A stretch of DNA of 64,000 bases, taken from NCBI GenBank assembly GCA_903935095.1, contig CAIZQH010000023.1, forward strand, positions 1 through 64,000. The letters run 5' to 3'. The notes under the pieces are model-generated. The model saw nothing but the letters and a program-made list of their open reading frames with translations. It did not search any database and had not been told where the DNA came from. Positions 10,344 to 59,676 of the stretch are shown here, one piece after another. The DNA comes from an uncultured Flavobacteriales bacterium (GTDB lineage Bacteria > Bacteroidota > Bacteroidia > Flavobacteriales_D > Crocinitomicaceae). Each line of letters begins with the position of its first letter. Position 1 is the stretch's first letter. The position numbers and the translations under genes are program-made.

Positions 10344-10443
10344 GCAGTATTTTTTATTAAAAATAAGGAAAATCTCGTAACGCAAGATGTCTATCCTGCG
10401 GAATACCGCATCGCTGGATTGTTAATTTAAGGTTATATGGTGC

Positions 10444-10500
10444 CGCAGCAGTGCAACTGCAGCGGTGCAAAGCGGATGCCTCAGCATTACAACTGCAGCG
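10444..10500. repeat. Orphan REP hairpin pair
   Basis: Bases 10444-10464 form a 21-nt imperfect palindrome (arms CGCnGCAGT and ACTGCnGCG, loop GCA, one A-A mismatch) identical base for base to 58248-58268 next to the RAYT transposase. A diverged copy in the same direction lies at 10482-10500 (CAGCATTACAACTGCAGCG). Both 21-mers are followed two bases later by GCAAAG. The pair sits in the 190-base spacer between the starts of the DUF5686 gene and the end of the BtuF-like gene and could also serve as a transcription barrier. Confidence 0.8.
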
Positions 10501-54170: not shown

Positions 54171-54283
54171 ATCAAACCTGAAAGAAATTCTTCTGTTAGA
54201 ATTTTACATTCTTCACGTTTATTTTGTCAGCTGATGAACCAAGTTTTAACTTAGTTGTACAAAGGCTCACTAAACGTCTACGC

Positions 54284-57200
54284 ATGAACATACCCTTCCC
54301 AAGCGCATCCAAAAAACACATCCGTTTTGGTCTTATCTTATTGATTGCCATTCTCGCTGGAATTCTTTTCAATTACTTGAATCGACCAGAAACACCGACA
54401 AAACAGAAAGATCCATATGCTGGGCTCTTCAATCGTAAAACAGACGGTTTGATTCAGGAACAAACCTTACTTGCAAACAAGGCTGTTCCCGTATTGAAAA
54501 TCTCGAACGAACGAGAAAAAACAGTTCAGCTTTCCAAATTATCGATTTCCTCCACAATTGAAAATGGTGTCGCTCGCACGCGCTACGACATGTATTTCTA
54601 CAACGAGCAAAGCCGAGATTTGGAAGCAGAATTACAATTTCCACTCGCCGACGGACAAACCATCTCCTATTTTGCAATGGACGTCAATGGTGAGATGCGT
54701 TCCGGTGTAGCCGTTGAGAAAGTAAAAGCACGCATGGCATACGAGGCAACGGTTCGACAAGGAATCGATCCTGGATTAATCGAAAAAACGCAAGGAAATA
54801 ATTTCAAATTACGCGTCTTCCCTGTTCCATCGAAAGGGACAAAGCACATCATCATCGAGTACATGCATGAACTTGCGATGGATGTTAAACACGCCTATTA
54901 CTACCTCCCGCTTTTCTTTAAAGAAAAAATTCCTGTTTTCTCCTACCACCTTTCCATCGTTGGCGAAGCAGAAAACCCAAACATTCTTCGTTTCTGTTCC
55001 GATGATTTCAAGCTTTCTGAAGTATCGAAAATTTACCAAGCATCCGTTCGTAAAAAACAATTTTTAGCGAACAAACCTATAGTCATTCGCCTACCGAATC
55101 GTCAATCTGAAGCAGTCGCTGCGTGCGAACAAAAGTCAAACGGAATCTTCTTCCATACGAATCTGAAACTTCCACAAAAGTATGCACGCAAAAAGCAGCC
55201 TAAAAAAATCACGGTCATGTGGGACGTGTCTAGTTCTCGATACCTATCCCAAATTCCAAAGGAAATCAGCTTGTTGAAGAAGTATTTAAGCACCATGAAA
55301 AAAGGAGAAGTGGAATTCATTCCTTTTGGATTCAAAGCACTTCCTAGTCAAACCTTTCACATCAAAAATGGACAAAGCACCAAATTACTTCAAGCCATTC
55401 AGAAACTTGAGTACGATGGTGGAACAACCCTAAATCAATTGCCGTGGAATTCCTGTAAAGGCGAAGAAATCTTGTTGTTTACTGATGGACTTCAAAACCT
55501 AGGGAGCGCAAATAGTCCCTTAACCTCGAAAGAAATATACTGCATTCAAAGCGCGATTAAATCCGATAATGGATTCCTAAAAAATCTATCACGGACTTCT
55601 CACGGTGAATTCATCGACCTTTGTTCTTTAAGTGAAATGGAAGCTTTGGAGCGCTTGAATTCAAAATCGCTTCACTTTATGGGATTTGAACCGGATTCCG
55701 CATTGGAAAATTATTATCCAAGTACCGGATTGGGGAACAATGGCATTCTTTCCGTTTCTGGAAGGTTAACGAAAGTGCGTCCTTTCGTCACCGCTAAATT
55801 CGGAATCGGAACGAAAGTCCTTTTAAAAACAACTATCCCGCTAGAGCTTAACAAGCAAAAAGCACATGCCAACCTAGAAAAAATGTGGGCGATTCACCAG
55901 CTCAACGAACTTCAAGAAAATTCCAAACAAAACGAAGAACAAATTCTAGAGACCGGTTTAACATACCGTTTGGTTTCTGATTTCTCTTCCCTATTGATTC
56001 TCGACCGAGTGGAGGACTATGTTCAACACCGTATTTTACCTCCAAAAAGTTTACAAAAAGAATACTTCAAACAATTGAAGGCGGCGGATAAAGAGGAGAA
56101 AGAGAACAGTTATGACCATATGAAGAACATAAAAAAGGAATGGAAAACGCAACAAGCCTGGTGGAAATCACATCGAAAAGAACCGAAGAAAAAAAGAAAT
56201 CGACACAACACACAACGTGCTCCCATGCCAGGTGATGATGTAGAAACGCGAAGTATGACTGTTGAAGGTTCTAATTTTGAATCTTCTCCGCCACCACCAC
56301 CTGCGCGTGTTTCAGCTAATTCAACGGAACAAAGTACTGCTTTTATTCCTCCAGTTGCAGAAGATGATGAAGTAGCAAACGTGCAAATGGAAAGCACTCA
56401 AGCAGGCGCAGAAATCCAATTATCATCCGGATACGGTTTAGGTAATTCCGTTGGCGCAGTAAGTTACACATGGGCTAGTGGGGATTTCAATGGATTCGCC
56501 AGTTCTGCTTCAGTTTTAGCTGGAACCTATAGTTTAACCGTTACGGATTTCAACGGGAGTACAAGTTCAACCGTTGCTGCTCGCGGTTCTTTGCGCGTGA
56601 AAGCTTGGGATCCGAAGTCACCATATATGAAACGCATTAAAAACGTTCCGCTATCAAAAGCTTATCGTGTTTATTTAGAGGAACGTAAAAAGTATGCGAG
56701 TCAACCATCGTTTTATTTGGACGTGAGCGATTACTTGATTTTCAAAAAACATTACGCCGAAGGAATTCGTGTCCTATCGAACATTGCCGAATTGGACATG
56801 GAAAATCACAGTTTACTGCGCATTGTTGCACAACGATTCCTGCAATTAGGTGAAAAGAAATTGGCTTTAGCGCTTTTCAAACACTTGATCGAACTTCGTC
56901 CGGAAGAACCACAGTCCTACCGTGACCTTGGACTCGCGTTCGAACAAACCGGTAATTACAACGAAGCTATTCGCTACTTATTCAAAGTAGTCAAAGAACC
57001 ATACGATGGACGCTTTGCTGGAATTCACTGCATTGCATTGAACGAAATCAACAACATCATTGCTAGTCATCCGAGAAACTTGAAGTATGACTACATCGAC
57101 AAAGCGTTTATTCGCAAAATGCCAGTGGACATTCGCATCGTCTTGAATTGGGACACCGATGATACCGATGTCGATCTATGGATCACGGAACCTGATGGCG

Positions 57201-57487
57201 AAAAATGCATGTATTCATATCCGCTGACCGCAAATGGTGGACGCATTTCTAATGACTTTACCCAAGGTTATGGTCCAGAAGAATACATGATTCACGTAGC
57301 ACAGCATGGAACATACCGCATTCAAGCGCATTATTACGGTGATCATCGTCCGACTGTAAATGGCAAAGCGACCTTAAGTGTACAATTGTTTAAGCAGTAT
57401 GGAACTAGTTTGCAGTACAAACGTGAAATCACCCGCAGATTAAACGTAACAGACGACGTGGTTGACCTTGGTGAATTTGAGTTTTAA
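54284..57487 (+). CDS. Membrane-anchored VIT-VWA protein with SprB-like, TPR and DUF2135 parts
   Basis: A 1067-residue protein with one N-terminal helix (about 15-32), so most of it is extracytoplasmic. Parts in order: a VIT domain (about 60-210, MRSGVAVEKVKARMAYEATV); a VWA-like domain with DVSSS at about 314 and FTDG at about 401; a basic, proline-rich linker (610-700); one SprB-like unit (about 713-770, VSYTWASGDF to LAGTYSLTVTDFNG); a TPR pair (about 845-905); and a C-terminal DUF2135 (about 950-1065, DTDVDLWITEPDGE). VIT-VWA proteins resemble inter-alpha-trypsin heavy chains. The MIDAS reads DxSSS with a conserved TDG aspartate, so metal-dependent adhesion is plausible. The ATG at 54284 is preferred to a TTG 20 codons upstream. 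A RAYT element sits right at its stop codon. Confidence 0.85.
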   Translation: MNIPFPSASKKHIRFGLILLIAILAGILFNYLNRPETPTKQKDPYAGLFNRKTDGLIQEQTLLANKAVPVLKISNEREKTVQLSKLSISSTIENGVARTRYDMYFYNEQSRDLEAELQFPLADGQTISYFAMDVNGEMRSGVAVEKVKARMAYEATVRQGIDPGLIEKTQGNNFKLRVFPVPSKGTKHIIIEYMHELAMDVKHAYYYLPLFFKEKIPVFSYHLSIVGEAENPNILRFCSDDFKLSEVSKIYQASVRKKQFLANKPIVIRLPNRQSEAVAACEQKSNGIFFHTNLKLPQKYARKKQPKKITVMWDVSSSRYLSQIPKEISLLKKYLSTMKKGEVEFIPFGFKALPSQTFHIKNGQSTKLLQAIQKLEYDGGTTLNQLPWNSCKGEEILLFTDGLQNLGSANSPLTSKEIYCIQSAIKSDNGFLKNLSRTSHGEFIDLCSLSEMEALERLNSKSLHFMGFEPDSALENYYPSTGLGNNGILSVSGRLTKVRPFVTAKFGIGTKVLLKTTIPLELNKQKAHANLEKMWAIHQLNELQENSKQNEEQILETGLTYRLVSDFSSLLILDRVEDYVQHRILPPKSLQKEYFKQLKAADKEEKENSYDHMKNIKKEWKTQQAWWKSHRKEPKKKRNRHNTQRAPMPGDDVETRSMTVEGSNFESSPPPPPARVSANSTEQSTAFIPPVAEDDEVANVQMESTQAGAEIQLSSGYGLGNSVGAVSYTWASGDFNGFASSASVLAGTYSLTVTDFNGSTSSTVAARGSLRVKAWDPKSPYMKRIKNVPLSKAYRVYLEERKKYASQPSFYLDVSDYLIFKKHYAEGIRVLSNIAELDMENHSLLRIVAQRFLQLGEKKLALALFKHLIELRPEEPQSYRDLGLAFEQTGNYNEAIRYLFKVVKEPYDGRFAGIHCIALNEINNIIASHPRNLKYDYIDKAFIRKMPVDIRIVLNWDTDDTDVDLWITEPDGEKCMYSYPLTANGGRISNDFTQGYGPEEYMIHVAQHGTYRIQAHYYGDHRPTVNGKATLSVQLFKQYGTSLQYKREITRRLNVTDDVVDLGEFEF

Positions 57488-57503
57488 AGAAAGGAATTCT
57501 TGT
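57481..57503 (+). repeat. 23-bp direct repeat, left copy
   Basis: Starts GTTTTAAAGAAAGG and ends AATTCTTGT; identical over all 23 bases to 58278-58300. It includes the last codon and stop of the VIT-VWA gene. The two copies bracket the REP-RAYT module. Confidence 0.85.
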
Positions 57504-57515
57504 ATTACCCCGCTC

Positions 57516-57591
57516 CGCTGCAGTTGCACTGCTGCGGAACATTTGCAGTTGCATTATTGCGGAACAATTTAGGTTGCATTATTGCGGAACA
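57516..57591 (-). repeat. REP palindrome followed by two tandem decayed copies (25-bp period)
   Basis: Bases 57516-57536 are the exact reverse complement of the 21-mer at 58248-58268. The 19-nt core GTTGCAnTnnTGCGGAACA repeats at 57523-57541, 57548-57566 and 57573-57591, exactly 25 bases apart. The second and third are identical, and differ from the first at three positions that break its hairpin. Confidence 0.8.
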
Positions 57592-57642
57592 AATTTCAAA
57601 ACAAAATCAATTTAAGACAAGATTTTTTCTTATCTTAAATCA

Positions 57643-58218
57643 ATGCAACAAGGTGTCAAACACAACATTAAGAAAAATACCAGCTATTACTTAACACTAA
57701 CTGTCGTTGGTTGGGTAGATGTATTTACGCGAAATAGTCATAAAGATGCGCTTATCGAATCCCTAAGGTATTGTATAAAAAATAAAGGACTAAATGTTTA
57801 CGCATATTGTCTGATGACTAACCACTTACACATGGTGGTAAACTGTAATGAGCCTTTTCAACTGAAAGATGTGATTAGAGATTTTAAAAGACATACGGTA
57901 AAGACAATCATCGATCAGATAATCAATAAACCCGAAAGTCGAAGAGAATGGATGCTTAGAGAATTTGAAGCAGCAGCAGATAAAACTGACCGAAATAAAA
58001 CATACAAATTTTGGAAAAGTGGCAATCATGCAATAGAACTATTCACTGAAAAATTTGTGTGGGAAAAGATAAATTATATCCACAATAACCCGGTTAAAGA
58101 AAAATATGTGAAAAATCCACAGGAGTGGTTATACTCGTCGGCTTCAAATTATTGGTACGGTGAAGGTTTGTTGGATGAGGTGCAATGTTTGACTCCACGA
58201 TTAAAAACTGTAAGATGA
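57643..58218 (+). CDS. REP-associated tyrosine transposase (RAYT)
   Basis: A 191-residue Y1 transposase of the IS200-like HUH superfamily. The histidine-hydrophobe-histidine motif lies in MTNHLHMVV (about 58-66), where the usual form is MPNHVHLLL. KFWKSGNHAIELF and KINYIHNNPVKEKYV with a following WLYSSASNYW match the RAYT family C-terminal half; a tyrosine in this part is the probable nucleophile. The length is normal and the frame open, so it looks active. Read at ATG 57643; the near-consensus box TATCTTAA (57631-57638) ends four bases before it. Inverted copies of one REP hairpin flank the gene, the typical RAYT arrangement. An orphan REP at 10444 shows that the system has spread. Confidence 0.88.
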   Translation: MQQGVKHNIKKNTSYYLTLTVVGWVDVFTRNSHKDALIESLRYCIKNKGLNVYAYCLMTNHLHMVVNCNEPFQLKDVIRDFKRHTVKTIIDQIINKPESRREWMLREFEAAADKTDRNKTYKFWKSGNHAIELFTEKFVWEKINYIHNNPVKEKYVKNPQEWLYSSASNYWYGEGLLDEVQCLTPRLKTVR

Positions 58219-58247
58219 TTTTTTTACTGAAAAAATAAAGATGGTTT

Positions 58248-58268
58248 CGCAGCAGTGCAACTGCAGCG
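58248..58268 (+). repeat. REP palindrome downstream of the RAYT gene
   Basis: A 21-nt hairpin: nine-base arms with one A-A mismatch (CGCAGCAGT and ACTGCAGCG) and loop GCA. It is identical to 10444-10464 and the reverse complement of 57516-57536, and is followed two bases later by GCAAAG, as at 10444. Confidence 0.85.
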
Positions 58269-58277
58269 AAGCAAAGT

Positions 58278-58300
58278 GTTTTAAAGAAAGGAATTCTTGT
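58278..58300 (+). repeat. 23-bp direct repeat, right copy
   Basis: Identical to 57481-57503. Ten bases separate it from the REP palindrome. The sequence that follows (GTTTTTCAATTAAATG) differs from that after the left copy, so this marks the right boundary. Confidence 0.85.
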
Positions 58301-58362: not shown

Positions 58363-59676
58363 ATGCGTAAATTCCTATTTTCCTGCTTTATATTGAATTC
58401 ACTCTACTCTATCGCTCAAAATATCCCCATCAGTTTTGAACCAGGAGAATTTGGTTCAACATGGTCTTGGACCGTTTTTGAAAATATTGGAAATCCACCA
58501 TTAGAAATTTTGACCAATCCAGATGTAACTGGACTCAATACATCTTCAACCGTCGCAAAGTTCACTGCACTTCAAGGAGGAATGCCATATGCCGGAGTGG
58601 AATGTGCACATGGAGAAGTGGGAACATTCACCCTTACTCCTACAAATTGCATCGTAAAAATAATGGTTTATAAACCGGTCATCAGTAACGTTGGAATTAA
58701 ATTTTCTACTGGATCTGGTGGATCCACTGGTCAATTATTAGTCCCAAATACTCAGATCAACAAGTGGGAAGAATTAACCTTCGATTTTACACCCATACTT
58801 GGTTTACCAACTTCCAGCGGAATTGATCAATTGATTATTTTTCCAGACTTTCAGACCCGTACATCTACGAATATCTGTTATTTTGACAACATAACTTTTG
58901 GAATACCTGGTCCTCCATTGGCAACACCCATGACGCCAGCACCAGATCCAAATTTCGCTTCAGTTGATGTGATTTCGATGTTTAGCAATGTGTACACAGA
59001 TGTTCCTGTGAATACGTGGCAAACTGCATGGTCACAAGGAACGTTGAACGACATCCAAATTCAAGGAAACGATACAAAAAAATACAGTTCGCTGAATTTT
59101 GTTGGAGCGGAAACAACGGGGAGTAATCTTTTGGATGTGACCAATATGACGCATTTGTACCTGAACATTTGGACAGCCAACATGACGGAATTCCGTGTTA
59201 AACTTGTAGACTTTGGAAATAACTTAACCTATGCAGGTGGAGACGATACAGAACATGAATTGACCTTTACGCCCACATTGGAGAGCTGGATGACATTAGA
59301 CATTCCATTAACAAACTTTATTAACCTTGCTTCAAATGACCACATTGCTCAATTGATTTTTTCCGGTAATCCAAGTGGAAGCGGGGTCGTTTTCGTAGAC
59401 AATGTTTTATTTCATAACATCGTTACAGGTATCGACGCGATTGAAGCGAACGAGATGAAGCTTTACCCGAATCCCGTTCAAAACGTATTATCGATTGCGC
59501 ATTCATCGGATTTAGCATCCATTCAAATTTACTCTTTGACAGGTGAGAACATACTTGTTCAAACGGATATGACAGCTTCAAAAATGGACGTTTCGCAATT
59601 AGAAAGTGGAATGTACGTTTGTATGATGGAAACCATCAATGGAGAAATTCTTCAAACAAAGTTTATCAAGGAGTAG
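58363..59676 (+). CDS. Secreted carbohydrate-binding-type protein with T9SS tail
   Basis: A 437-residue exported protein (signal peptide ending SIAQ). Two beta-sandwich modules fill residues about 20-345, each with a conserved pattern ending in IYFDN- or VFVDN-type strands: CYFDNITFG at about 190 and VVFVDNVLFH at about 350. The second opens ASVDVISMFSNVYTDVPVNTWQ, as in the accessory modules of Bacteroidota laminarinases. The last 80 residues are a type A T9SS sorting domain (LYPNPVQNVLSIAH). No catalytic domain is seen. The ATG at 58363 opens the signal peptide; a GTG 22 codons upstream is rejected. A near-consensus box, TACTTTTA, lies at 58340-58347. Confidence 0.85.
   Translation: MRKFLFSCFILNSLYSIAQNIPISFEPGEFGSTWSWTVFENIGNPPLEILTNPDVTGLNTSSTVAKFTALQGGMPYAGVECAHGEVGTFTLTPTNCIVKIMVYKPVISNVGIKFSTGSGGSTGQLLVPNTQINKWEELTFDFTPILGLPTSSGIDQLIIFPDFQTRTSTNICYFDNITFGIPGPPLATPMTPAPDPNFASVDVISMFSNVYTDVPVNTWQTAWSQGTLNDIQIQGNDTKKYSSLNFVGAETTGSNLLDVTNMTHLYLNIWTANMTEFRVKLVDFGNNLTYAGGDDTEHELTFTPTLESWMTLDIPLTNFINLASNDHIAQLIFSGNPSGSGVVFVDNVLFHNIVTGIDAIEANEMKLYPNPVQNVLSIAHSSDLASIQIYSLTGENILVQTDMTASKMDVSQLESGMYVCMMETINGEILQTKFIKE

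Follow-up and report, generated by a model that had tools for sequence, protein, structure and literature searches.

The locus examined here, in a 64,000-nucleotide stretch of DNA (the window) from an uncultured member of the Crocinitomicaceae, raises the question of how a gene for a REP-associated tyrosine transposase (RAYT), together with its REP hairpins, came to lie between two identical direct repeats. RAYT genes are described as immobile, with no gene mobility known, in the available portions of two papers (PMC2817692, PMC8266576), and the original prediction noted that neither REP/RAYT systems nor IS200-like enzymes are known for duplicating their targets. No report of RAYT target duplications was found in the open-licence literature searched, the coverage of which is partial. 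The insertions described here bear on the spread of RAYT genes and REPs, being datable and having empty sites and border duplications.

The element and its borders

The sequence GTTTTAAAGAAAGGAATTCTTGT occurs as an exact 23-bp direct repeat at 57481–57503 and 58278–58300 (both + strand), and the match extends to 25/26 positions if one mismatch is allowed. The repeats thus lie at both element borders as originally claimed, and these are the only two exact copies in the 2.48-Mb genome (29 contigs), in which one further site resembles the repeat with three mismatches. As a 22-base pattern with up to 3 mismatches, the repeat occurs twice in the window and not once in 100 shuffles. The left copy comprises the last bases and stop codon of the upstream host gene followed by 16 nt; this gene (54224–57487, + strand) encodes a 1087-aa VIT-domain/DUF2135 protein, and its TAA stop at 57485–57487 is inside the repeat. 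The position of this stop codon had been predicted correctly, but the name given to the gene, VIT-VWA, is only half right: the protein matches VIT, DUF2135 and, below threshold, TPR, and has no VWA match at E≤0.001. The downstream host gene (58363–59676, + strand, with its ATG at 58363) encodes a protein with a T9SS C-terminal sorting domain and occupies this position in the readable same-genus relatives as well.

The element resembles the RAYT/TnpA-REP systems (REPtrons) of Bacteroidetes subclass 2.6 of Quentin 2018, in which inverted hairpins likewise flank the gene for a Y1 HUH transposase; the NHLH and YIHNNP motifs and the single gene copy in this genome are further points of likeness. 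The RAYT gene (57643–58218, + strand) is intact with 191 codons, and is the only copy in its genome. The NHLH (HUH) and YIHNNP (tyrosine) motifs in its translation fit the NH[LIV]H and YIH[QN]NP of the subclass 2.6 motif set, which also includes WQ; WK stands after the nearest F. The protein scores 93.1 bits against NF047646 (NCBIfam REP-associated tyrosine transposase; cut-off 80) and 23.3 bits against the IS200/IS605 profile NF033573, below the cut-off of 55. It also matches Pfam Y1_Tnp, and a PDB search by sequence returns weak matches only (E about 0.08). Subclass 2.6 corresponds to RAYT group 5 of Bertels.

The left REP (57508–57537, + strand) consists of a 5′ foot, CCCCGCT (57508–57514), and a hairpin (57515–57537), and is followed by two more degenerate REP-like units in direct tandem with a 25-nt period (57544–57593, + strand). 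The right REP (58246–58277, − strand) is inverted, with a hairpin at 58246–58270 and a foot, ACTTTGC on the − strand, at 58271–58277, such that the 5′ foot points outwards at both ends. The arms are 29 nt long and 93% complementary, and both hairpins fold, with equally good folds in 0/200 and 1/200 shuffles; the profile score, arms and folding together confirm a RAYT gene between inverted REP hairpins. Neither foot, CCCCGCT on the left or ACTTTGC on the right, has the GT[AG]G that GTAG-type REPs carry on the 5′ side of their hairpin, a point of difference from the described RAYT systems. The many REP copies of RAYT systems are not seen in this genome, which has seven matches with up to 3 mismatches, of which three belong to this element and another (by eye) is within a coding sequence; this count concerns matches to the REP of this element, and REPs of other sequence escape it. 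Elsewhere in the window (10430–10500) there are REPs without a RAYT gene, including a one-mismatch match at 10441–10461 (− strand) with an adjoining degenerate hairpin.

Empty and occupied sites in the genus

Of the genus's 86 genomes, 26 have the VIT protein, the genome under study among them, and the site is readable in 11 same-genus relatives (VIT protein 69–93% identical); the count omits G082, where the contig stops at this gene, and 13 VIT matches that are more distant. The empty sites sought by the original prediction are common: eight of the 11 relatives lack the element, one (G059) has REPs only, and two (G072 and G029) have a RAYT. The two best-preserved empty sites (G046 and G020) contain a single repeat copy, with one mismatch in 23, followed by the same downstream gene, and the remaining six are more diverged across the repeat region. 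None of the eight empty relatives carries two repeat copies, so the right-hand copy came together with the element. The single-copy sites and the lack of any relative with two copies and no element support the predicted history, in which insertion doubled the end of the gene.

The sister species G072, whose VIT protein is the nearest to the one here, has a full RAYT element in the same place with a 32-bp repeat (28/32). Both of its repeat copies read GAAAGT whereas both copies here read GAAAGG, and the two copies within either species resemble each other more than they do the copies of the other species. The two genomes are 96.0% identical in the element, 93.1% in the 3′ kb of the VIT gene and 85.0% in the downstream gene, and third-position divergence is 0.058 for RAYT versus 0.154 for VIT. 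These patterns would fit either one shared insertion with gene conversion that homogenised the copies or two insertions.

The element in G029 (L020) has 508/543 nt (93.6%) identical to that described here, whereas the final kb of VIT has 810/990 (81.8%) and the whole VIT gene is 75% identical. Judged from sequence, the G029 element reached this spot separately, because it is so much more alike than the adjoining host gene. Its RAYT gene has lost the C-terminal part and is joined directly to the right REP, with one in-frame TGA in the match. In G059 (L015) a REP pair without a RAYT gene lies slightly further downstream of the VIT gene and the flanking sequence is changed.

Duplicated gene junctions at other RAYT loci

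RAYT matches (E≤1e-40) are present in 53 of 240 Crocinitomicaceae genomes. The family sample comprises 72 matches, with 63 in the scan set (60 regions and the window), 10 dropped for a short match or short flank, and 57 copies scanned; the sample from other families of the phylum comprises 75 matches outside the window and 60 regions, with one match dropped and 60 copies scanned. The scan covers direct repeats spanning the RAYT gene with hairpins masked, using shifted windows of the same loci as controls. At a score of at least 20, repeats span 17/57 family copies versus 3/207 controls (Fisher 4e-10) and 11/60 phylum copies versus 2/232 controls (Fisher 7e-7), leaving 40/57 and 49/60 copies with no repeat at this score in the hairpin-masked scan. 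Since repeats recur at these copies, the locus is not the rare chance to see how a RAYT unit arrived that had been proposed. About half of the matches are in REP arrays or are unclear (8/17 in the family, and 10/15 in the phylum at a score of at least 18). Clean duplications, a class chosen by eye and unblinded and compared with unfiltered controls, account for 9/57 family copies at a score of at least 20 (versus 3/207 controls; p 8e-5) and 5/60 phylum copies at a score of at least 18 (versus 2/232; p 0.005); at 20 or more the phylum figure is 2/60 versus 2/232, which is not significant alone. In the family count the copies here and in G072 may be one event and L104 is counted twice, and the L104 array itself supplies one of the three positive controls in the family.

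The nine clean host-sequence duplications in Crocinitomicaceae include those here and in G072, and the eight other than the one described here are about 24–125 bp long. They include L139 (80/82), L106 (50/53), L122 (55/60), L112 (41/44) and L140 (24/25), the border-repeat alignments excluding L110, L120, L130 and L137. L139 is in Crocinitomix catalasitica ATCC 23190, and with a cultured type strain among these lineages the reaction is testable. L104 (L057 2759–4770, in a Brumimicrobium-like genome) is a nested array in which two tandem RAYT units, the repeated unit being host segment plus element, are 98.4% identical over 852 nt, a third RAYT copy is internally deleted, and each is flanked by fragments of one gene junction; a duplication of about 125 bp encloses one copy, and a duplication of 94 bp, read as a nested event, encloses the internally deleted one.

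The duplications mostly span the stop codon of a neighbouring gene. The upstream stop codon is within the left copy here and in G072, L104, L139, L106 and L122; in L112 it straddles the edge of that copy, and in L140 it lies 28 nt before it. L104, L139 and L106 have a convergent downstream gene whose end falls inside the right copy, and in L122 and L112 that end lies 2 nt and 17 nt beyond the aligned copy. In element-free relatives of L106 the convergent genes abut in 7/7 cases with their last codons 2–24 nt apart, and at the L112 junction they abut in 15/19 relatives (5–22 nt apart), the downstream gene not being found in the other four, one of which (G172) has a RAYT. Second target copies were not seen in the L106 and L112 relatives inspected. 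The empty site of L139 is weak, in that the genes abut in 2/8 relatives (last codons 14 and 18 nt apart), the downstream gene is 29–35% identical, and the junction is rearranged or the gene not found in 6/8; L104 and L122 have no informative empty site among the relatives compared. The stop codons at L106 are contiguous, which left no spacer for an element to enter, and the left and right copies each complete one gene. Both genes are whole in L139 and L106 only because the duplication places both stop codons inside copies; duplication can thus let an element land between tightly packed genes with both unbroken, and this sparing of neighbours explains persistence of the element in compact genomes.

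The clean phylum loci are L228, L231, L248, L256 and L259. The stop codons of both neighbours are inside the copy in L231, the downstream one in L248 and L256 and the upstream one in L228, and the upstream stop overlaps the copy edge in L259. At 7/7 loci with inspected junctions, an A can be read at the host position just ahead of the repeat (in L139 only after a border shift); as a common nick-site base this was set aside, with 0/5 clean phylum loci having it, and it is kept as a lead. The sequence just beyond the right copy of L140 resembles a TPP riboswitch.

Origin of the duplications

Single-copy empty sites, duplicated host borders, the G029 arrival, the other loci and the whole neighbour genes form the comparative basis for interpretation. 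A transposable unit of REP, RAYT gene and inverted REP probably entered downstream of VIT with duplication of its target, as its relatives did over about 20–125 bp, and from sequence comparison the duplication very probably happened at insertion. Unlike RAYTs as described, which are said to be immobile, this element has sites that are empty in relatives, has reached one spot separately and is accompanied by target duplications; the tandem copies in L104 likewise depart from immobility.

Neither chance nor assembly is a credible source of the repeats. The window does come from a genome in 29 contigs, but the same structure is present in other assemblies, including a type-strain isolate (L059/L139) and a single-contig genome (L122), and a chance repeat is rejected by its absence from all 100 shuffles, its uniqueness in the genome and the far lower control rates. 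It is very improbable that the RAYT unit entered between two copies of a target already doubled: no evidence for such a prior duplication was found, and this reading is rejected since none of the eight empty relatives has two copies, nor do the L106 and L112 relatives inspected. Insertion without duplication, slippage or unequal exchange at the REPs having doubled the host segment afterwards, would be in keeping with the many RAYT loci in REP arrays with repeated segments and with the tandem units of L104; it is nevertheless unlikely, as the insertion points of L139 and L106 are within the downstream coding region, where the gene would have been cut, and the repeats abut the element borders.

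A further alternative accepts that duplication accompanies insertion and differs in its source, which would be repair or replication. A RAYT nick would prime limited synthesis and the new strand, having passed the right REP, would jump back 20–125 nt and re-copy host DNA or the element end. Such template switching, conceived by analogy with AAV Rep integration, is a possibility we take seriously while rating it below even. It would account for the variable duplication length, for the repeated host-plus-element segment of L104 and for the tandem copies of the right element end in L106 and L112, and AAV integration, likewise an HUH-enzyme reaction, reportedly duplicates part of its target. Against it, most switch points share little sequence (junctions by eye), and in most cases both ends are closely marked by REP feet.

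Duplication by two-strand transfer at insertion is a chemistry that we propose tentatively. HUH nucleases release a free 3′-OH and keep the 5′ end on the tyrosine according to the part of PMC8266576 available, and the same arrangement is proposed for RAYT in the corresponding part of PMC2817692. The two REPs are inverted, with feet pointing outwards on opposite strands, so each element strand has a foot at its own 5′ end. The enzyme would nick at the foot and stay bound to the 5′ end through its tyrosine, the two 5′ ends would be handed to host 3′-OH ends at opposite-strand nicks 20–125 nt apart, and gap filling would then double the sequence between the staggered nicks, giving duplications of variable length. 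Several observations count against the reading as a whole, target duplication at insertion included. Among them are the copies with no repeat, the REP arrays and unclear matches, the phylum figure at 20 or more, and the weak or uninformative empty sites given above. In L106 and L112 the RAYT C-terminal end and right REP are duplicated in tandem (up to about 100 nt per unit, by eye), which suggests re-copying; the concerted copies here and in G072 are not expected from one simple insertion; and about 38 nt separate the right REP from the repeat in L140, as do about 20 nt the left REP from its aligned repeat in L112. The data fit both two-strand transfer and template-switch re-copying. On the two-strand scheme, Bacteroidetes RAYTs could possibly be a living transposon family that joins its 5′ ends to staggered host 3′ ends, duplicates about 20–125 bp, and enters spacerless convergent junctions with both genes left whole.

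A Y1 HUH transposase would not be expected to make duplications that are long and of variable length. IS200/IS605 elements, which share the enzyme fold family (Pfam Y1_Tnp) and hairpin ends, transpose one strand through a single-stranded circle and so duplicate nothing. The element described here differs from them in its inverted symmetric ends and long (23-bp) target duplication, IS200/IS605 having neither terminal inverted repeats nor larger target duplications in the available part of PMC2817692. The likeness to Rep-mediated integration of AAV extends to the HUH enzyme and partial target duplication but is one of mechanism only, AAV being an animal virus with a helicase-bearing Rep. REPIN/BIME arrays share the inverted REP pairs, and the internally deleted RAYT of L104 resembles a non-autonomous form; REPINs and BIMEs are short multicopy repeats, whereas here the RAYT gene itself moved. 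In a quick comparison of RAYT and host trees (60 rows) the genus labels need 30 changes, the minimum possible being 12; the RAYT tree shows lineages mixed, a pattern that transfer and loss would both fit.
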